A stretch of 51,875 bases of DNA from Sedimenticola hydrogenitrophicus (GTDB lineage Bacteria; Pseudomonadota; Gammaproteobacteria; Chromatiales; Chromatiaceae). The notes under the pieces are model-generated. The model did not search any database. It was not told where the DNA came from and was given only the letters and a program-made list of their open reading frames with translations. Positions within the stretch are counted from its first letter, which is position 1. Every line of letters starts with the position of its first letter. This document shows positions 490-24,440 of this stretch, one piece after another. Made by a program: the position numbers and the translations under genes. The DNA lies in NCBI RefSeq assembly GCF_029017505.1, contig NZ_JAQGEI010000040.1, positions 1 to 51,875 of the forward strand. The letters are read 5' to 3'.

Positions 490-714
490 ATGAAATCCTA
501 CTTAAAAGACCTGCACGCCTCTTTGAGGCGTTTTAGCGTGCGACTTCCGTCGGAAATGCTGGAAGCTATCGACACCGAATGCTCCCGCCGTGCTGGCTGC
601 GTATCACGCAATACTTGGATTGCTGAAGCGATTCAGGAGAAGTTAAGTCGGGAAAGTCTAACAAACCGCCTTGAAGGCGAGGGAGAAGGGGAGAAAAATG
701 GGCGACTTTTATGA
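490..714 (+). CDS. Ribbon-helix-helix DNA-binding protein, restriction-block regulator
   Basis: A 74-residue protein if the ATG at 490 is used; the frame stays open further upstream, but those residues are Cys/Ser-rich and unlike a real protein. The segment RFSVRLPSEMLEAIDTE followed by RNTWIAEAIQEKL is the beta-helix-helix pattern of CopG/MetJ-type RHH regulators. It overlaps the start of the methyltransferase gene by 17 bases, so the two are translationally linked, and it probably controls the restriction-modification genes in the way C proteins do in other systems. The regulatory role is inferred from fold and position. The C-terminus is a Glu/Gly-rich tail created by the overlap. Confidence 0.65.
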   Translation: MKSYLKDLHASLRRFSVRLPSEMLEAIDTECSRRAGCVSRNTWIAEAIQEKLSRESLTNRLEGEGEGEKNGRLL

Positions 715-1846
715 GTTTTTCGCCGGCGGGGGCATGGCTCGGGCTGGGTTAGGCCCCGAATGGGACTGCCTGTTCGCCAATGACTTTGATTCTAAGAAGG
801 CGGCCAGCTATGCGGCGAACTGGGGCGCAGATCATCTGCACGTCGGTGATGTGGCTGCGTTGACTACGGATGATCTGCCGGGTCACGCGGATTTAGCTTG
901 GGCATCGTTTCCTTGTCAGGACCTTTCCCTTGCTGGTGCTGGCGCCGGACTTAAAGGGGATCGCTCCGGCACGTTCTGGCCGTTCTGGAAGCTGATGAAG
1001 GCGCTGGATGACGAAGATCGCGCTCCTCATATAGTTGTCCTTGAAAATGTCTGGGGTGCTATTAGCTCTCACGAAGGAAAAGACTTCGCCGCGATCAGCT
1101 CCGCCCTTGCCGGTGCAGGCTACCGCTTTGGCGCAGTTGTTGTGAATGCGGTTAGATTTCTTCCGCAATCCCGGCCGCGGCTGTTCATTATCGCCGTTAA
1201 AAAGCCTGTAACGATCCCACGCGAGTTAATCACCGAAAAGCCGGGGGTGGAATGGCACCCGGCGGCACTTATAGAGGCTTACAGAAAGCTATCAAAACGC
1301 TCGCAAAACTCATGGGTTTGGTGGCAGATGCCCCTACCTCATGCCCGCACCTCTATTTTTGCTGACCTGGTAGAAGACAAGCCACAGGGCGTCACCTGGC
1401 ATACAGCAGCAGAGACAAAGAAACTGCTGGCCATGATGAGCCCTCGTAACCTAGCGAAGGTCGATGCTGCAAAAAAAGCAGGCCGCAAGATGGTTGGGAC
1501 TATCTATAAGCGTACCCGTGCGAATGGCGTCAACGGTGAAAAAGTACAGCGTGCGGAAATTCGCTTCGATGATATTGCGGGGTGCCTGCGTACCCCGTCG
1601 GGTGGTTCGAGCCGTCAAACCATCATGGTCATAAATGGCAAGCGGGTTCGGTCGCGCCTTTTGTCACCTCGCGAAGCTGCCCGTTTGATGGGGCTACCTG
1701 ATACTTACCTGCTACCTAAAAACTATAACGAAGCCTACCACCTTGCTGGTGATGGCGTGGCTGTGCCCGTGGTCCGCTTTCTCGCCGAATATATCCTTGA
1801 ACCGATGCTTTCTGCTGCCTTAACAGCAGCAAAGAAGGCGGCGTAA
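698..1846 (+). CDS. DNA (cytosine-5)-methyltransferase
   Basis: A 382-residue type II C5 methyltransferase. Motif I is FFAGGGMARAGLG near the N-terminus (AdoMet binding); motif IV is SFPCQDLSLAG with the catalytic Cys; motif VI is ENV; motif VIII is QSRPRLF; motif X is GDGVAVPVVRFLAEYI at the C-terminus. The target-recognition region lies around residues 190-310. The ATG at 698 is preferred over an upstream TTG at 671 because it has a GGGGAGAA ribosome site and opens directly into motif I. The stop overlaps the next start by one base (TAATG), so it is coupled to the DUF4928 gene. With that protein and Vsr it forms a restriction-modification cassette. The recognition sequence cannot be read from the protein. 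Confidence 0.95.
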   Translation: MGDFYEFFAGGGMARAGLGPEWDCLFANDFDSKKAASYAANWGADHLHVGDVAALTTDDLPGHADLAWASFPCQDLSLAGAGAGLKGDRSGTFWPFWKLMKALDDEDRAPHIVVLENVWGAISSHEGKDFAAISSALAGAGYRFGAVVVNAVRFLPQSRPRLFIIAVKKPVTIPRELITEKPGVEWHPAALIEAYRKLSKRSQNSWVWWQMPLPHARTSIFADLVEDKPQGVTWHTAAETKKLLAMMSPRNLAKVDAAKKAGRKMVGTIYKRTRANGVNGEKVQRAEIRFDDIAGCLRTPSGGSSRQTIMVINGKRVRSRLLSPREAARLMGLPDTYLLPKNYNEAYHLAGDGVAVPVVRFLAEYILEPMLSAALTAAKKAA

Positions 1847-2778
1847 TGACGGATTTAGTGGAAGCGCTATGTGAATTCAACAAAGAGCGAAAGTTCAGCC
1901 GCAAAGGTCCGTTATGCGTTGCTCTTGTTACTACTCAACACGCGCGAAACAAGGGTCTCCCCCTTGACTCTGAAAGCCTGCTTACTGGAGGCGGTGGCCA
2001 AGTTCTCGGCTTGGGCAAAGGTGCCGTGCAAGCAGTGTTAAAACGCCACGGCATCACCCGCGTTTTAGCGGCTGAAGGCGGGCGCACCAGTCGCGGCAGT
2101 ATTGGGAACATGCGCGAGTATGTGGTTTTCCTCAATAACTTGGCTGACGGTGGAGTCGTTGATCTGGATGCAGTAGAGGCGTTTTGGATCGAGCGCGTGC
2201 ACGAGTTCTTTTCGGCGAAGCCTTTCAAGATCAAGCTTGATGCGTCTCGCAGCCTTCGCACATTGGTTCGCCACGTGATTAGCCAGGCCGAAGAAAGGCA
2301 GCGCAAGGCGCCGGGTATGCAGTACGCAGGCGCAGTGCTGCAGCACCTGGTCGGTGCAAAACTTGATTGCGCTCTTGGTAATGGCTCCTTTGAGCACAAT
2401 AGCTTTTCTACGTCTGATGCACAGACCGGCCGGGCTGGTGATTTCTTCATTGGTGATGTAGCTATCCACGTCACCACAGCCCCTGGTGAGGCTATAGTTC
2501 ATCGCTGCCAGGACAATATCGATGATAGCCATAGACCCATCATCGTAACCACGGCTCGCGGGCTGGCTGCCGCCGAGGTTCTGGCAGAGAATGCTGGGTT
2601 AGGTGAACGGATCGACATTTTCGAAGTCGAGCAGTTCATTGCCCTTAACCTGTATGAACTTGGCAAGTTTGCAGCGGAAGGGCGGCGTGTTGCTGTCGGG
2701 GATCTGGTCACGCGTTACAATGAAATTATTGAAGACGTTGAAACCGATCCCAGCCTAAAGATCGAATTCCGCCAATAA
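1846..2778 (+). CDS. DUF4928 family protein, probable type II restriction endonuclease
   Basis: A 310-residue protein that I recognise as DUF4928-like, a family found beside C5 methyltransferases and Vsr genes. It starts on the last base of the methyltransferase stop codon. Position and partner make it the likely restriction enzyme of the set. I do not see a clean PD-(D/E)xK motif; the best candidate segment is around residues 198-212 (GDFFIGDVAIHVTT), where the usual lysine is not obvious. The function is therefore inferred from context. The N-terminal part (GGGGQVLGLGKGAVQAVLKRHG) looks like a DNA-binding helix region. Confidence 0.75.
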   Translation: MTDLVEALCEFNKERKFSRKGPLCVALVTTQHARNKGLPLDSESLLTGGGGQVLGLGKGAVQAVLKRHGITRVLAAEGGRTSRGSIGNMREYVVFLNNLADGGVVDLDAVEAFWIERVHEFFSAKPFKIKLDASRSLRTLVRHVISQAEERQRKAPGMQYAGAVLQHLVGAKLDCALGNGSFEHNSFSTSDAQTGRAGDFFIGDVAIHVTTAPGEAIVHRCQDNIDDSHRPIIVTTARGLAAAEVLAENAGLGERIDIFEVEQFIALNLYELGKFAAEGRRVAVGDLVTRYNEIIEDVETDPSLKIEFRQ

Positions 2779-2789
2779 TCGGGTAGAGA

Positions 2790-3245
2790 ATGAAGGAAAC
2801 ACCGGAGCAGAGAAGCCGCACGATGCGTGCTGTTTGCTCCCGCGACACTACACCAGAGATGGCTGTTCGCCGCTTCCTTCACGCCGCCGGACTTCGTTAC
2901 CGACTTCATGACCGACGCTTGCCCGGTTCTCCTGATCTGGTCTTTCCAAGTCGCCGTATTGCACTGTTCGTGCATGGCTGCTTCTGGCATCAGCATCCTG
3001 GCTGTGCGGCGGCCAAGCGTCCGCGTTCGCGCCTTGAATACTGGACGCGCAAACTTGATGGCAACATGGAGAGGGATCACCGTCAGTGCGCCGAGCTGGC
3101 GGCGGCCGGCTGGGAGGTTATTGTGATATGGGAGTGCGAAACGCGCGACTCCTCTGCCTTGGCAAGGCTGGCTGAAGACATTCGGTCGCGCCCGCTATCT
3201 CGATCTCGATCTCGATCTCGATTCTCGATGAAGAATTCAGGATAG
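2790..3245 (+). CDS. vsr: Very short patch repair endonuclease
   Basis: A 151-residue Vsr-type nuclease. It nicks 5' of the T in the T:G mismatches left when 5-methylcytosine deaminates, which matches the C5 methyltransferase two genes upstream. Visible family motifs are RSRTMRAVCSRDTTPE, the catalytic Asp in LPGSPDLVFP, the metal and wedge region FVHGCFWHQHPGC, and VIVIWECETRD. It follows the DUF4928 gene by 11 bases. The C-terminus, beyond the usual family end, is a Ser-Arg repeat encoded by a hexanucleotide repeat at 3197-3220. Confidence 0.93.
   Translation: MKETPEQRSRTMRAVCSRDTTPEMAVRRFLHAAGLRYRLHDRRLPGSPDLVFPSRRIALFVHGCFWHQHPGCAAAKRPRSRLEYWTRKLDGNMERDHRQCAELAAAGWEVIVIWECETRDSSALARLAEDIRSRPLSRSRSRSRFSMKNSG
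3197..3220 (+). repeat. Hexanucleotide microsatellite (ATCTCG)4 in vsr 3' end
   Basis: Four perfect tandem copies of ATCTCG, then a degenerate continuation, encode the Ser-Arg repeat in the Vsr tail. A 6-bp unit keeps the frame whatever the copy number, so length change would alter the tail only. Confidence 0.9.
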
Positions 3246-3277: not shown

Positions 3278-4036
3278 ATGTCAGCGCTGACGTGTCTGAA
3301 TCCGGGCGATCACTGGAGTGTTCAGGGAAACATGGGGCAAAAGCTTGAAATTGGAAAGTTTCTTAGCCTGAAACAGCAGGAACTTAATGCTGAAGATACT
3401 GATTTCGAGAAACTGGAGGTTTGCACCCAGTCGATCCATCGTTGGCTCCAGTACTGCGAGTACCATTACATCTGCCTTGTGGACGCTTCGGAAGAGGGGG
3501 GTCTAAGGCTAGATAGGATCTCAAACCCAGGTTATCGCCGCGCCGGCGAAACCGTCCCACTTAGGTATGTCTACGAGGCTCATATTGCAGCATTTCTTAA
3601 TAGCCTCCATGCCTTACTCGACTCGTTCCCTTATTTGTTAAATCTTTTCATTCCCGTGGATAAGCCTGACTCTATGGGAATTAAATGGAATGAAAACTTC
3701 ATTAATAAATACAAGAGCATGTGCTTCTATGATGAGCTTATGGATTTCATGTTGGATTGCACCTTCAATAAAGTGAAAGGTTACGTCAACACCATCAAAC
3801 ATAAGCATCTGATCAGAATTTCAAACAAGTGGGATCACTTAGAATTCGAAACGTATCGCTACAAGCAGCCGTATCGTGATAAACAGGGAAAAGTGATATT
3901 TCGTCCTGAAGTCGTTGCAGGTGAGGACGTTTTACCTTTTATTGAAGCATGCCATGGTGAACTAATTCCAAAGCTGTTCAACCTTGGTAATAGCATATTG
4001 CATTTCAAAGGTAGCCGGCTTGCTAATGATCCATAA
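3278..4036 (+). CDS. Unknown protein, possible HEPN-like
   Basis: A 252-residue protein, noticeably more A+T-rich than the plasmid backbone, immediately downstream of vsr. I do not recognise it firmly. The middle (FLNSLHALLDSFPYLLN) and the later VNTIKHKHLI with a preceding long helix resemble HEPN-type helical proteins such as the Cthe_2314 group, where an N-x-x-KH element recurs; this is a weak, memory-based resemblance. The start is uncertain: ATG 3278 has little ribosome site, whereas ATG 3332 has AGGGAAAC just upstream and would give 234 residues. Position next to a restriction system makes an accessory defence role possible, but nothing in the sequence proves it. Confidence 0.65.
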   Translation: MSALTCLNPGDHWSVQGNMGQKLEIGKFLSLKQQELNAEDTDFEKLEVCTQSIHRWLQYCEYHYICLVDASEEGGLRLDRISNPGYRRAGETVPLRYVYEAHIAAFLNSLHALLDSFPYLLNLFIPVDKPDSMGIKWNENFINKYKSMCFYDELMDFMLDCTFNKVKGYVNTIKHKHLIRISNKWDHLEFETYRYKQPYRDKQGKVIFRPEVVAGEDVLPFIEACHGELIPKLFNLGNSILHFKGSRLANDP

Positions 4037-4040
4037 TCAA

Positions 4041-4090
4041 TCGCAGCAGTTCGCAGCAGTTCGCAGCAGTTCGCAGCAGTTCGCAGCAGT
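4041..4090 (+). repeat. Five tandem 10-bp repeats (TCGCAGCAGT)
   Basis: Five perfect head-to-tail copies followed by a partial sixth (TCGC) lie in the gap between the gene ending at 4036 and the ParC-like gene. A helical-turn spacing of exactly 10 bp suits protein arrays such as a centromere or operator. Confidence 0.95.
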
Positions 4091-4215
4091 TCGCGGCCTG
4101 TGGCCGCCGGACCAATTTGCCCGTGTCCACGGTATTTGTCAGTGCCGATAACGGACGCTATGTTAAATCACCCCGCCAGAAGCGACCGCCCCGGCCCCTC
4201 CTAACCGCTTGATCT

Positions 4216-4290: not shown

Positions 4291-4524
4291 ATGAACGAAG
4301 TCGAAATCCGTACCCTGGTCCAGGCCGGCGTGGATCTCCGCCTGGCGGCCGTGCCCCGGCCCCTCGATCTCCCCGGCTTTACCGTGGTGATCAACACCGG
4401 CCGCCTGGAGCAGCGCGAAATGAAAACCCGGCGTGGCCAGGTCCGAGTATTCAAGAAGCTGGAAACCCTGTGGAAGCTGTGCAAGGAACTCGGGATCGCG
4501 GGGTTCGAGGTGCGGGTTCGGTAA
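4291..4524 (+). CDS. ParC-like small protein with duplicated 3' end
   Basis: A 77-residue protein beginning MNEVEIRTLVQAGVDLRL and ending ELGIAGFEVRVR, preceded by FKKLETLWKLCK. It has the same helix-strands-helix-strand build as the gene at 41-373 and resembles small plasmid proteins annotated as partition-associated; function unproven. Upstream are a tandem 10-bp repeat and an inverted repeat that could be its target. The last 26 codons (from 4446) are repeated almost base for base at 5549-5627, and the first 21 bases of the same block occur again at 4652, so the 3' end of this gene looks like a repeated entry point for inserted DNA. Confidence 0.65.
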   Translation: MNEVEIRTLVQAGVDLRLAAVPRPLDLPGFTVVINTGRLEQREMKTRRGQVRVFKKLETLWKLCKELGIAGFEVRVR

Positions 4525-4525
4525 G
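4446..4525 (+). repeat. 3'-end duplication block, copy 1 (intact gene end)
   Basis: An ~80-bp block from TTCAAGAAGCTGGAAACC to the stop codon. It is matched at 5549-5627 with only a handful of differences, in the same orientation. This copy is the natural 3' end of the 77-residue gene. Confidence 0.9.
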
Positions 4526-4601
4526 GTTCGCTCAGTTACGCATAAACGGTCGCGCCCATTGACCGTATTCGGGTTTTCCGAACACGGTGATCAGCATCGG
4601 A

Positions 4602-4643
4602 CCAATCGGGATAGCGAGGCGGCCTATCGGGATGGTGAGGCGC
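4602..4643 (+). repeat. Two tandem 21-bp repeats
   Basis: Units at 4602-4622 and 4623-4643 share CNATCGGGATRGYGAGGCG with few differences. They lie in the stretch between the first gene-end copy and the truncated second copy. Confidence 0.7.
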
Positions 4644-4651
4644 CCAGGGCC

Positions 4652-4672
4652 GAGTATTCAAGAAGCTGGATT
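4652..4672 (+). repeat. 3'-end duplication block, copy 2 (truncated)
   Basis: CGAGTATTCAAGAAGCTGGA matches the start of the block at 4443-4462 and then diverges. It looks like the remnant of a third copy, implying more than one insertion event. Confidence 0.75.
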
Positions 4673-4723
4673 CTATTCGTACGACAAGTGGCGCCGGCAC
4701 GATCAACAGAGGAAATAGGGGCA

Positions 4724-4987
4724 ATGGCGGATGCAGTTTATACACAAGGGCAACGGGCCATAGAGTTGTTGCGCCTGCTCCACCATTCGCACGGGTGGGT
4801 AACTATCGAAGAACTCTCGGTGGAGTTCGGAGAGAGCAGGGCGACGACAATACGCATTTTCGCTATGTTGCGCCGTGATTTTGAGGTGGTGATCACCTAT
4901 CACCGGTCACCGCAGGATAGCCCGCCTGGTTATTACAGCATCGACGATTGGGGTCTTTTTGACCGTCAGCGTGTTTTGACAGTTTAG
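4724..4987 (+). CDS. Small winged-helix DNA-binding protein
   Basis: An 87-residue protein starting at ATG 4724 behind an AGAGGAAA ribosome site; the longer open frame upstream only reads through the repeat blocks. AIELLRLLHHSHGWVTIEEL followed by FGESRATTIRIFAMLR is a DeoR/HTH_11-type helix-turn-helix, and the rest (FEVVITYHRSPQDSPPGYY) suits a wing and ligand part. It is the first gene of the three-gene insert between the duplicated gene ends and is followed at once by an XRE-type regulator, so a small regulatory pair is likely. Confidence 0.75.
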   Translation: MADAVYTQGQRAIELLRLLHHSHGWVTIEELSVEFGESRATTIRIFAMLRRDFEVVITYHRSPQDSPPGYYSIDDWGLFDRQRVLTV

Positions 4988-4993
4988 GAAGAG

Positions 4994-5314
4994 ATGATAG
5001 TGGATAAGAAACAGCTTGTTAAACTCATCCAGAATCACGAATCAGCCGAAGCCGGGATCGGCGAACGGGTACGAACATTAAGAATGGCCAATGGACTGAC
5101 GCAAGGACAGCTTGGAGACCTTGCCGGATCAAATAAGGCCGCGATTCAAAAGATCGAAATCGGCAAATCTATGCGGCCCAGATGCCTAGCAGCACTGGCT
5201 GCTGTCCTTGGCGTTAACCCGGCTTGGCTTGCCTGGGGTGCTCCATATGCTTCGCCTGAGATAAGGAGCCAGTCAGAACTCCCTGTTTCAGTGATAAGGC
5301 GAACGGTAAAGTAA
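4994..5314 (+). CDS. XRE-family helix-turn-helix protein
   Basis: A 106-residue protein. The Cro/CI-type HTH spans GERVRTLRMANGLTQGQLGDLAG through SNKAAIQKIEIGK, followed by LAALAAVLGVNPAWLAWG, the usual end of the domain. A GTG at 5000 is an alternative start with better spacing from the AGGAAG at 4986. It lies seven bases after the winged-helix gene and before a 60-residue acidic protein. It probably autoregulates; targets are unknown. An antitoxin role is possible but no toxin is evident. Confidence 0.85.
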   Translation: MIVDKKQLVKLIQNHESAEAGIGERVRTLRMANGLTQGQLGDLAGSNKAAIQKIEIGKSMRPRCLAALAAVLGVNPAWLAWGAPYASPEIRSQSELPVSVIRRTVK

Positions 5315-5357
5315 CCGAGAATCCAGAACAAAGCACTTTGGCGAGGAGAAGATATAC

Positions 5358-5540
5358 ATGATCAAGAAGGGCGACACAGTTGTAATCAAGCCGGAATGGC
5401 GTGATCCAGGCGATGAGGATTTTCATTGGATAGCACTAGAGGACGAGGACGGGGGGCGGGTGCGCATTGCGCCGACCGATACGGGCATGGCGATAGAGCC
5501 AAACTACGTCGTCGAAACGAGCATGTTAGAGGGCGAGTGA
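5358..5540 (+). CDS. Small acidic hypothetical protein
   Basis: A 60-residue protein starting MIKKGDTVVIKPEWRDPGDE and containing repeated beta-strand-like stretches (VVIKP, HWIALEDEDGGRVRI, NYVVETSML), suggesting an SH3-like or KOW-like small barrel. I do not recognise a characterised family. GGCGAGGAGA 10 bases before the ATG is a good ribosome site. It is the last gene of the insert; its stop lies 9 bases before the third copy of the gene-end block. Confidence 0.7.
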   Translation: MIKKGDTVVIKPEWRDPGDEDFHWIALEDEDGGRVRIAPTDTGMAIEPNYVVETSMLEGE

Positions 5541-5548
5541 GCTGGCGG

Positions 5549-5627
5549 GTCTTCAAGAAGCTGGAAACCCTGTGGAAGCTGTGTAAGGAACTCGGGATCG
5601 CGGCGTTCGAGGTGCGGGTCCGTTGAC
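5549..5627 (+). repeat. 3'-end duplication block, copy 3
   Basis: A near-identical copy of 4446-4525, including the codons for FKKLETLWKLCKELGI..FEVRVR and a stop codon, but without the rest of the gene. It marks the right edge of the 1.1-kb insert. Confidence 0.9.
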
Positions 5628-5649
5628 TGGTGAAGTGAGGTCCGGAGCC

Positions 5650-5661
5650 TTGACCGGTCAA
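5650..5661. promoter_or_regulatory. 12-bp perfect palindrome
   Basis: TTGACCGGTCAA lies between the third gene-end copy and the left inverted repeat. Its role is unknown. Confidence 0.4.
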
Positions 5662-5670
5662 CCGGGGTCT

Positions 5671-5835
5671 GTAGTGGTCAAGCATTGGGAAATGAGGCAT
5701 TATGAAGAATAATCGTTGTACGAGACGATCGATAGTCTTTCAGGAAGCGGGGCCGGAATGCTCAATACGGATACCTCACCTGCGCTATCACCCCAAATAG
5801 CGAACTGCCGGGTAGCCGGTAAAAAAACAAATGCT
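5671..5835 (+). repeat. 165-bp inverted repeat, left copy
   Basis: It runs from GTAGTGGTCAAGCATTGGG to ACAAATGCT and matches the reverse complement of 8837-9000 with only a few mismatches. Both copies sit just upstream of genes that read toward each other. In this copy the reading frame that is open in the right copy is broken by a stop (GAAGAATAA). Confidence 0.95.
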
Positions 5836-8165: not shown

Positions 8166-8268
8166 GTTTTTCCTCCTATGGTGTGCATTCATCCAGTTCG
8201 TATTTCTATGACTGCTTTATGAGCAAGGGGGCCTAGCTTATAAGGCAGCAATCGCCTGGAGCCGATGG

Positions 8269-8730
8269 TTAGAGGGCAGCACCGTTACCACCCGCCGAGA
8301 ATACCTGGATTACCGTGGCAAGGCCGATTGCAGCGCCTCCTACCGCAAAGCTCCAAATCTGGGCGCGGTAGATTCGCCAAGTCCATTCACCGAGACGCCT
8401 CGATTCTTCTCTCAATTCTTCCAGTTCTTGACTGTCATATTTTATGGGGTGCGCGATCTGTGCGGTAAGTCGGAAATCAGAAAGGCGGTTTAGTGAGCAC
8501 CAAAGTGCCAATGCCACAGATAGCGCGAGCAATCCCGAAGAAAGCACCCCGAGGCCGAAGGCACATGGAGCCGTTAGTTTACCTTCCAGGAGGAGCAAGG
8601 TCGCGAAACCAAGAAGGCCGGTACCAAGACCGAGGACGAGATTGGAAGTGGCACCGAGCTGTTCGCGCGTGATACCTTGCCATTTTACGAATCGCTCGTA
8701 GATATCCTTTTCTTCCTTTCCCTTTTCCAT
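8269..8730 (-). CDS. Hypothetical membrane protein
   Basis: A 153-residue protein with hydrophobic segments around residues 29-50 (SNLVLGLGTGLLGFATLLLL), 54-78 (APCAFGLGVLSSGLLALSVA) and 125-148 (IWSFAVGGAAIGLATVIQVF), so two or three membrane spans, joined by a charged helical loop rich in Glu/Arg. No enzyme motif. It is the outermost gene of the right arm and reads inward from the right inverted repeat. The 11-base sequence GGTTAGAGGGC at 8266-8276 recurs inverted at 8737-8747, framing the gene. Confidence 0.65.
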   Translation of the reverse strand: MEKGKEEKDIYERFVKWQGITREQLGATSNLVLGLGTGLLGFATLLLLEGKLTAPCAFGLGVLSSGLLALSVALALWCSLNRLSDFRLTAQIAHPIKYDSQELEELREESRRLGEWTWRIYRAQIWSFAVGGAAIGLATVIQVFSAGGNGAAL

Positions 8731-8753
8731 TCTCAGTGCCCTCTAACCTTTTA

Positions 8754-8792
8754 GCATTTATACCGCATGCCTCGCATGCGACATAAATGCCT
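8754..8792. other. Strong hairpin between membrane-protein gene and right inverted repeat
   Basis: An outer stem GCATTTAT/ATAAATGC encloses CGCATGC-CTC-GCATGCG. It lies in the leader of the minus-strand gene at 8269-8730. It could be an attenuator or a recombination remnant; there is no T tract. Confidence 0.6.
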
Positions 8793-8836
8793 ATTGAACT
8801 GAGCCGTCCTCGATAGGGTTACCAACTCTATTAATA

Positions 8837-9000
8837 AGCATTTGTCTTTTACCGGCTGCCCGGTGGTTCGTTATTTGGGGTGATAGCGCAGGTGAGGTAT
8901 CCGTATTGAGCATTCCGGCCCCGCTTCCTGAAAGACTATCGATCGTCTCGTACAACGATTTTTCTTCATAATGCCTCATTTCCCAATGCTTGACCACTAC
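8837..9000 (-). repeat. 165-bp inverted repeat, right copy
   Basis: The reverse complement of 5671-5835 with a few differences. On the minus strand this copy holds an uninterrupted frame of about 68 codons (MRHYEEKSLYETIDSL...), which is broken in the left copy, so it may be a fragment of a former gene. The 240 bases beyond it (9001-9240) show no gene. Confidence 0.95.
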
Positions 9001-9240
9001 TGGCCCCTAGACCCCTGGGGCACCACACGGGGAACCAGTGCGCTACTCCAGCGCGCCTTTGCGGATCTACCCACATCTGCTCCTTGCGCTGGTGGCGGAC
9101 CCGTTCAAGAAGGATCGCACCACGGAGTAGTAAGAAGCGGAACGTAGCGGATAAAATCAAACGAAGCCAAGAGCCAACCAGGCGGTCGAGAGCGACCGAC
9201 CGGGATAGCAGAGCGTGTGGCTGTCGCAGAACTTCTTATG

Positions 9241-22699: not shown

Positions 22700-22709
22700 A
22701 TTTTTTCTC

Positions 22710-22738
22710 TTGCCTGGCGGCATTTGTTTAGCTAAACT
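22710..22738 (+). promoter_or_regulatory. ssb-trfA promoter with KorA operator
   Basis: -35 TTGCCT (22710-22715), 17-bp spacer, -10 TAAACT (22733-22738). The KorA operator GTTTAGCTAAAC occupies 22726-22737, overlapping the -10, so KorA binding would block the polymerase. Confidence 0.8.
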
Positions 22739-22769
22739 TTGCCTACTATTTTCGACAGGGAGTTTTGCG

Positions 22770-23114
22770 ATGAGTCATAACCTTTTTCAATTTATCGGTA
22801 ATATTACCCGCGATGCGGATTTGAGTCATGCTGAATCTGGTGCTGCGCGCGTACAGCTTGATCTGGCCGTTGATCGTGTCTGGCGGGACCAGTCCGGAGA
22901 GAAGCAGCAGCAGACCGATTTTTTCCGCATCAAGGCGTTCGGCATGCTGGCCGAGAATGCCGCTAAGTACCTGGGCAAAGGGTCCAAGGTGTTCGTGGAT
23001 GGTCGCGTGGAACCCACTCGCTTCGAGCGCGGCGGCAAAACCGTGTATGGTATCGATTTCATAGCAAGCGGTATTCAGTATCTTGATACCAAGGCTCCGG
23101 GTGGTCAGGGTTGA
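22770..23114 (+). CDS. ssb: Single-stranded DNA-binding protein
   Basis: A 114-residue OB-fold SSB from ATG 22770 behind CAGGGAG; the frame upstream includes the promoter and is not coding. MSHNLFQFIGNITRDADLSHAESG, RVQLDLAVDRVWRDQ, FFRIKAFGMLAENAAKYLGKGSKVFVDGRVEP is the standard SSB core. Like RK2 SSB it is short and lacks the acidic DDIPF-type C-terminal tail of chromosomal SSB. First gene of the replication operon. Confidence 0.95.
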   Translation: MSHNLFQFIGNITRDADLSHAESGAARVQLDLAVDRVWRDQSGEKQQQTDFFRIKAFGMLAENAAKYLGKGSKVFVDGRVEPTRFERGGKTVYGIDFIASGIQYLDTKAPGGQG

Positions 23115-23149
23115 AGTAGGTTCAACCTTTTCTTTCCTTGGAGTTCAAC

Positions 23150-23171
23150 GCCGGCCTTTGGTGGCCGGCTT
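23150..23171 (+). other. Hairpin between ssb and trfA
   Basis: GCCGGCC/GGCCGGC arms around a short loop, followed by TTTACTG rather than a clean T tract. It may moderate read-through into trfA. Confidence 0.5.
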
Positions 23172-23192
23172 TACTGATGAGAGTGCGTTCTA

Positions 23193-24053
23193 ATGTCTGC
23201 TACCCGCAAAAAGAAAACCGCCTCTGATGCCCTCGCCAAGCAAGTGTCCGAGGCGAAGCAAGCGGCTGTCCTGAAGCAGTCGAAGGAAGAGATTAAGGAA
23301 ATGCAGCTTTCCTTGTTCGACCTTGCTCCCTGGCCTGATCATATGCGGGCGTTGCCTAATGACTATGCCAGGTCGGCGCTGTTTACGGTGCGTAACAAGC
23401 GGGCTCCTCGCCAGGCGCTGCAGAACCACCCGCTTTTTCACGTCAATAAGGATGTGGAGATCACCTATACCGGGGTTGAGCTGCGGGCCGAGGATGATGA
23501 GCTGGTTTGGCAACAGGTGCTTGAATACTCGAAACGGGTTCCCTTGGGGGACCCTATTACGTTCACCTTCTATGAGCTTTGCAAGGACATTGGTTGGTCG
23601 ATCAATGGCCGCTACTACAAGAAGGCCGAGGCGTGCCTGTCCCGCCTGCAGGCCTCCGCCATGCAGTTCTCTTCTTCTCGCGTCGGCCGCCTGGAGTCTG
23701 TTTCTCTGATCCACCGCTTTCGGGTCCTGGATCGGGGCAAGCGTAGCTCTCGATGCCAGGTTGAGATCGACGATGAAATGGTGATGCTGTTTGCCGGAGA
23801 TCATTACTCGAAGTTCATTTGGGAGAAGTACCGGAAGCTCTCCCCTACCGCTCGCCGGATGTTCGATTATTTTGCGTCCCATAAGGAGCCGTTTCCGCTC
23901 AAGCTGGAGACTTTCCGCCTGATGTGTGGTTCTGAGTCCACCAGGCCCAAGAAGTGGCGTGAGCAGGTGAATGATGCTTGCGAAGAGCTGCGCGATACCA
24001 AGCTGATAGAGAGTGCTTGGGTGCTGGATGATCAGGTGCATTGCAAGCGTTGA
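23193..24053 (+). CDS. trfA: TrfA replication initiator (short form)
   Basis: A 286-residue protein that aligns end to end with the short (33-kDa, TrfA2) form of RK2 TrfA: AKQVSEAKQAA, EMQLSLFDLAPWPD with the QLSLFD clamp-binding motif, FHVNKDVEITYTGVELRA, ITFTFYELCKDIGWSINGRYY, FIWEKYRKLSPTARRMFDYF and a CKR-type C-terminus. It binds oriV iterons, opens the origin with DnaA and loads helicase and clamp. An in-frame TGA at 23178 rules out the long TrfA1 form, which in RK2 begins within ssb and is needed for helicase loading in some pseudomonads. Confidence 0.97.
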   Translation: MSATRKKKTASDALAKQVSEAKQAAVLKQSKEEIKEMQLSLFDLAPWPDHMRALPNDYARSALFTVRNKRAPRQALQNHPLFHVNKDVEITYTGVELRAEDDELVWQQVLEYSKRVPLGDPITFTFYELCKDIGWSINGRYYKKAEACLSRLQASAMQFSSSRVGRLESVSLIHRFRVLDRGKRSSRCQVEIDDEMVMLFAGDHYSKFIWEKYRKLSPTARRMFDYFASHKEPFPLKLETFRLMCGSESTRPKKWREQVNDACEELRDTKLIESAWVLDDQVHCKR

Positions 24054-24106
24054 CCTTTCCCCTGGTGCACCTGGTCCGGACCTGGTGCGCCCGTTTCAGC
24101 CGTTGA

Positions 24107-24241
24107 TTACCCCCACCAGTTCCATATTTCCCAGATAGTAGCGGTCACGATGATTAGGATGCCTGCCCGTCTCGGGTAACAGAGCGCATAGCCGATCGCT
24201 AGGGCGAGTGGGTGCAGGATGATTTGGATGGTTCGGTTCAT
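24107..24241 (-). CDS. Small membrane protein downstream of trfA
   Basis: A 44-residue protein (MNRTIQIILHPLALAIGYAL..., ending WEIWNWWG) with GAGGA seven bases before the ATG. It has two hydrophobic stretches and a Trp-rich end, so it is a small membrane protein. It converges on trfA. RK2 has a small unassigned gene (upf16.5) near this place; equivalence is a guess. Confidence 0.5.
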   Translation of the reverse strand: MNRTIQIILHPLALAIGYALCYPRRAGILIIVTATIWEIWNWWG

Positions 24242-24440
24242 TGGGCAGTCCTCGGTGATTTGTGGGTCATATCTCTAAAAGACTTTTGTCCGAGAAGATT
24301 TTGGGGAATTTATGCCTATCCAGGGCATCCCCGTTGGGCCGGGCTGCTCCAGGTTCCGCTTCGCTCCATCCCCTCTGCTTCGCTCCAGGGACAAGCCTTC
24401 CGTATCCCTGATGCCTCCGCGCTCCGCTTGGTAATAAAGA

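Follow-up and report, generated by a model that had tools for sequence, protein, structure and literature searches.

The stretch of DNA analysed here (the window; 51,875 nucleotides) is contig C40 of a 5.13-Mb genome and carries, at 4291-4524, an intact gene for a protein of 77 amino acids (aa), the 3′ end of which occurs again further downstream. Positions refer to the window, and features lie on its forward strand unless the reverse is stated. The window belongs to a conjugative plasmid encoding a TrfA replication protein, KorB/ParB, a MOBP relaxase, and VirB/Trb-type (type IV) transfer genes. Upstream of the 77-aa gene, a cytosine methyltransferase, a DUF4928 protein (a type II restriction enzyme according to PADLOC), and a Vsr endonuclease are encoded in a row at 671-3245 and likely form a restriction-modification island within the same accessory region. 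A ten-base tandem repeat, TCGCAGCAGT, is present in about six copies at 4031-4107, between a 252-aa open reading frame (ORF) and the 77-aa gene. Two relatives are central for the comparison: a contig of 135,003 bases from Sedimenticola hydrogenitrophicus SB48 (G001; locus L013), which belongs to the same genus, and a contig from a genome of the same family (G017).

The 77-aa gene was called ParC-like in the preliminary description of this DNA, a label for which Pfam, NCBIfam, and PHROGs offer no basis (0 families). Of 210 family genomes, 3 contain the gene, as do 3 of 142 relatives, its own genome being included in both counts. A search of 398 genomes sampled from the phylum recovered it in its own genome and, as weak matches (E 1.8e-5 to 5.5e-4), in three others. 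These three weak relatives, all from outside the family, are longer proteins (about 150-170 aa) that resemble the 77-aa protein in their N-terminal part; one (G177) matches Pfam PaaA2, the other two are without a Pfam match, and each is followed by a ParE_toxin ORF as defined by Pfam (3/3; L010, L011, and L012). The domain stands alone on the window plasmid and is part of a longer protein accompanied by a ParE_toxin ORF in the distant relatives. A tblastn search of the plasmid collection returned five weak Rhizobium plasmid records (40.9% identity), and nothing was returned from viral contigs with the 77-aa gene, the XRE protein described below, and two exact patterns. The gene of the window and that of SB48 differ by 10 silent codon changes (stop codon included) and by no replacing change, which points to purifying selection. 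The predicted structure of the protein has a mean pLDDT of 45.9, and no inference was taken from this model. In one alignment, the row for L006 came from a translation of the opposite, incorrect strand, and it was disregarded.

The repetition of the gene end, as first described, is real, and the coordinates originally given for the outer copies are accurate to a few bases. The last 81 nt of the gene (copy 1, 4444-4524) occur again on the same strand at 5546-5626 (copy 2), with 94% identity over 77 nt ungapped and 74 of 81 matching positions over the block with the stop codon; among 2000 dinucleotide shuffles of the gene, none exceeded 41/81. A third copy had been described as a truncated 3′ end starting at 4652. 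Such a copy exists, but it starts at 4644 and is an internal piece of the gene: the 27 bp at 4644-4670 agree with 4437-4463 at 26 of 27 positions (18/27 at best in 2000 shuffles) and carry the allele of copy 1. Copy 2 covers nt 154-234 of the gene and copy 3 nt 147-173, and their end points therefore differ. A 16-nt core, TATTCAAGAAGCTGGA, is common to the three copies (4448-4463, 4655-4670, and 5550-5565); with up to two mismatches it has 3 matches against 0.03 expected, one of them by construction, as the pattern was taken from the window. The check for a fixed crossover point thus yields this core with unlike end points, in a repeat that only one genome has. Copy 2 also reads as a 29-aa ORF with a GTG start (5537-5626), which overlaps the stop of the acidic gene described below and has GAGG upstream; it could be translated as a C-terminal peptide of the 77-aa gene.

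Between the outer copies lie a winged-helix-like ORF, an XRE protein, and a small acidic ORF, in agreement with the preliminary description. The winged-helix-like ORF (87 aa, 4724-4987) reaches 20.5 bits with Pfam HTH_IclR, below the cut-off of 22, and among 89 genomes searched it was found only in its own. The XRE module (4978-5307; gene 4994-5314, HTH_31) is 93.9% identical to positions 8564-8893 of SB48 locus L013, and the acidic-protein module (5297-5550; 60-aa gene 5358-5540) is 95.7% identical to positions 8237-8490 of the same locus. The 60-aa acidic protein matches no family and has five relatives at 53-62% identity in viral contigs (L041-L045), where the context is different; some neighbouring ORFs there resemble DNA methylase or primase genes by eye. 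Taken together, the inserted genes look like small regulators of phage or plasmid type.

The remainder of the insert consists of short pieces. At and after the stop codon of the intact gene, a 34-bp block (4521-4554) has a counterpart with 94% identity on the S. thiotaurini plasmid NZ_CP011413, situated there downstream of a gene for a 213-aa tyrosine recombinase. Two iteron-like 17-mers follow at 4605-4642 (4605-4621 and 4626-4642), spaced by 21 bp. The SB48 contig has four iterons with the same 21-bp spacing (two exact, two with 1-2 mismatches) beside a rep gene of the TrfA/RepC kind, which scores above the cut-off with both Pfam TrfA and RepC. Any further iteron matches, whether in SB48, the window, G017, or the S. 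thiotaurini plasmid, contain 2-3 mismatches and stand at scattered positions. The iteron pattern has 5 matches in the window, three of them weak and scattered, against a mean of 0.4 in shuffled windows. The loose pattern gives 8 matches on the SB48 contig against about 6 expected, and since this number is near expectation, the argument from SB48 rests on the four-fold regular spacing. For 4555-4604, 4671-4723, and the winged-helix gene, no source was found among the relatives searched.

The block at 4521-4554 was also considered as the attachment site of the 213-aa recombinase. This reading was rejected, as the block is present only at the S. thiotaurini locus among the eight plasmid loci with this recombinase or its relatives that were examined (42 records matched, 30 being among the matches listed). 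In Sedimenticola and Shewanella plasmids, inverted repeats are seen by eye just upstream of the recombinase gene (L112-L116), and the one at the four Shewanella loci is conserved by the same inspection; the upstream repeat is perhaps the recombinase's own recombination site.

The two relatives share very different amounts of backbone with the window. The G017 contig matches 35,368 of the 51,875 window bases; the aligned blocks are collinear and, where long, 84-97% identical, and the relaxase, ParA, KorB/ParB, VirB4-like, VirB6-like, and topoisomerase proteins of G017 match those of the window at 86-99.6%. The SB48 contig contains only short pieces of the window backbone. At E 1e-5, neither contig gives a match to the window TrfA, which for the G017 contig means that the replication genes differ. 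The trfA stretch (22705-24335) is unmatched on the G017 contig, though the transfer and partition genes match at 86-99.6%, which suggests an exchange of the replication module. The longest region mostly not shared with G017 runs from 46888 through the contig ends to 9219 and contains the 77-aa gene. That the ends of the contig join would follow from collinearity, no end overlap having been found.

The DNA downstream of the 77-aa gene differs in all three genomes. In G017, the gene is uninterrupted and runs directly into the sequence which in the window forms the flank at 5627-5755, so that G017 is, by its sequence, the empty site, and the stretch at 5627-5670 is the native downstream flank of the gene. 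Downstream of the gene, G017 carries about 7 kb in which three long ORFs lie. In the window, the gene is followed by the 1.1-kb insert and by approximately 3.5 kb of mostly unshared DNA, and the backbone begins again at 9220. In SB48, the order is gene, acidic module, a spacer of 73 bp, and XRE module; the two modules stand in the opposite order to the window and there is no second copy of the gene end. A nucleotidyltransferase gene, an HTH gene, and then transfer-gene remnants lie beyond them, and SB48 has a TnpB of its own upstream of the 77-aa gene. In a search of 38 genomes, a 100-base query spanning the 73-bp spacer had no match outside G001 itself. The same backbone place thus carries different cargo, as expected of a plasmid accessory hot spot, with n = 3 and with G017 alone sharing long backbone. 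The variable cargo proposed earlier is accordingly borne out by DNA that differs in 3/3 genomes and by two reordered modules, but the site-specific slot proposed with it is not, as end points differ and five recombinase and transposase queries found nothing in the window. Reuse of the site at least twice is likewise unproven, the 27-bp piece being all that it rests on. A search of the plasmid collection by DNA with the whole slot gave no result.

The origin of the insert is best read from alleles and junctions. Two types of gene end are present: copy 1 has GTTCGGTAA, as SB48 does (GTTCGATAG), and copy 2 has GTCCGTTGACTGGTGAAG, as G017 does (GTCCGCTGACGGGTGAAG). Likewise, the intact gene ends in GTTCGGTAAGG and the SB48 gene in GTTCGATAGG, and the displaced copy ends in GTCCGTTGACTGGTGAAGTGAGGTCCGG, like G017. 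Between copy 1 and copy 2 there are 7 codon differences, of which 6 are silent (stop codon included) and 1 is replacing. Copy 2 is therefore the displaced native 3′ end of the gene, its end and its flank matching G017. At its junction, the end of the acidic module (GGCGGGT) meets the CGGGT of the gene, an identity of 5 bp. The 11-mer AGGCGAACGGT lies at the XRE/acidic junction (5297-5307), and with one change it is found at each end of the acidic-spacer-XRE block of SB48, preceding the acidic module as AGGCGCACGGT and following the XRE module as AGGCGAAAGGT. The border between the two modules in the window hence looks like the joint of a block that was opened elsewhere. The form is that of a circular permutation, which may have come about through the short repeats. 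These repeats are imperfect as well as short, and for the 11-mer pattern AGGCGNANGGT, which was itself derived from the data, 0.15 chance matches would be expected in the window. The legible junctions consist of one 5-bp identity and of 11-bp near-identities.

The arrangement most likely represents an ordinary recombination scar in the cargo region of the plasmid. More precisely, a block of approximately 1.1 kb lies between an intact gene with an SB48-type 3′ end and a displaced 3′ end of G017 type, and we consider it, with a probability of about 0.6, to be a scar left by recombination between two related plasmids through the 77-aa gene, inside an accessory region. Recombination of two plasmids with different alleles of this gene would leave each copy like another relative. 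The gene-end type and the XRE, acidic, and iteron pieces are all found within 57.3-64.4 kb of the SB48 contig (about 7 kb), and this clustering favours a related plasmid as the source of the insert. In such an event, a related plasmid, or a circle derived from one, would have recombined with the window plasmid through the common gene sequence, either by a Campbell-type single crossover or by homology in the gene at one end and the 5-bp microhomology CGGGT at the other. The cargo may then have been trimmed and permuted through short direct repeats (AGGCGNANGGT), and the outcome would be a restored gene, a displaced old end, and a 27-bp gene fragment. Selection on the gene probably kept only those events that left it whole.

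Several observations weigh against such a scar. By its module order, the insert is neither a simple circular nor a collinear copy of SB48, so that one or more additional rearrangements must be assumed; the counterpart of the 34-bp block lies on a third plasmid, that of S. thiotaurini, and not in SB48; the comparison comprises only three genomes; and a lost integrase would leave the same geometry. Moreover, the roles of donor and recipient are uncertain, since SB48 shares only short pieces of backbone and the window TrfA is unmatched on both contigs.

The insert could instead be a small element that a tyrosine integrase, later lost, placed site-specifically in the 3′ end of the gene, although we regard this as unlikely. 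Integrase-made islands in gene 3′ ends restore the gene with the 3′ end of the element and displace the native end to the far border. The window agrees with this pattern in its restored gene with a foreign end and in the native end displaced together with its native flank at the far border, and the 16-nt core of all three copies and the empty site in G017 also speak for such an insertion. The integrase-type geometry noticed in the preliminary description is therefore present, but it fits a single homologous crossover equally well. Unlike the known islands, the window shows no integrase and no end points shared between copies, copies 2 and 3 spanning different positions of the gene, and SB48 is without a second gene-end copy. 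The earlier statement that the window has no recombinase held within two comparisons: tblastn (E 1e-3) gave no match in the window for five proteins of relatives, namely two tyrosine recombinases, an integron integrase, an IS91 transposase, and a TnpB, and the three ORFs of the insert, compared with protein families, showed no integrase family. The same five queries found nothing on the G017 contig. On the SB48 contig, they gave a single weak tyrosine-recombinase match (66.9-67.4 kb, 25.5%, E 7e-7), with no second stretch resembling the 77-aa gene nearby. A casposon or GIsul2-type element, as also suggested at first, is defined by its own Cas1 or integrase, and neither family is represented among the three ORFs of the insert.

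A one-off local duplication of the gene end followed by drift would agree with the double copy being limited to 1 of the 3 genomes. We judge it improbable, since each copy has the allele end and the flank of a different relative, and the modules are shared with SB48.

The neighbourhood of the insert also raises the question of a rolling-circle transposition of IS91/ISCR type, in which the end at 5671-5835 would have mobilised and copied neighbouring DNA together with the 77-aa gene. An IS91-like 3′ end does lie just past the native gene flank at 5671-5835, with another partial form in G017, and full elements are present in the genus. However, the copy at 5671-5835 is truncated, stopping at position 206 of a 300-base repeat without the terminal hairpin part, and it lies outside the insert, whose own ends are not IS91 ends; tblastn with the transposase was also empty in the window and the G017 contig. 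This origin is accordingly held to be very doubtful. A fuller copy of the 3′ end is present on the reverse strand at 8744-9021. The IS91-like element itself measures 2.5 kb and encodes a 404-aa Y2 transposase and a 287-aa tyrosine recombinase; it occurs twice in G004 (L101 3275-5811 and L102 3610-6146; 99.4% identity), and single 3′ ends are found upstream of various genes in G000, G001, and G004.

There is only a slight chance that the gene's 3′ end serves as a landing site for the exchange and reordering of small regulator modules on circulating plasmids without a resident recombinase, through a host or trans-acting enzyme that would act at the core TATTCAAGAAGCTGGA. Three genomes are too few for such a slot mechanism to be claimed.

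Shuffling of integron-type gene cassettes by an integron integrase is the least credible origin: integron cassette arrays consist of small one-gene modules, which the window resembles in its small modules of permuted order, and integron integrases occur in the genus, with matches over the family cut-off in 6 of 19 genomes, but by eye, in pairwise alignments, none of the module borders (AGGCGNANGGT, TTAGG, and GGCGGGT) is an attC end, no integrase was found on the plasmid, and the own genome has only weaker partial matches below the cut-off, on contig C32. An attC-like repeat of 165-300 bp with a hairpin end beside the insert was likewise taken up as an integron site and rejected, as it is the 3′ end of the IS91-like element.

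Accessory hot spots are described for related plasmid types, and PMC7039861 names the parA locus as an insertion site in pSFA231, pMOL98, and pSB102; in the hot spots presented in that text, the cargo is transposon-borne (IS1071). The window plasmid resembles the IncP-1/PromA hot-spot plasmids in its backbone of TrfA, KorB, MOBP relaxase, and VirB/Trb-type genes and in accessory DNA that differs at a fixed place. In contrast to these hot spots, its 1.1-kb insert has no transposon ends, and unlike the parA-locus insertions, the 77-aa gene lies away from the ParA-like and KorB/ParB genes of the window (29.2-31.3 kb). Among the titles and openings of abstracts listed in literature searches, none names this arrangement, which is no proof of its absence from print.

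If further relatives showed fixed end points, the locus would instead represent a cargo slot that works without a recombinase. With the scar as the preferred reading, two alleles of a conserved small plasmid gene are joined around a mosaic insert which holds the iterons of another plasmid type, and the locus would record, in legible form, a recombination between plasmids in a sulfur-oxidising genus that has received little study.
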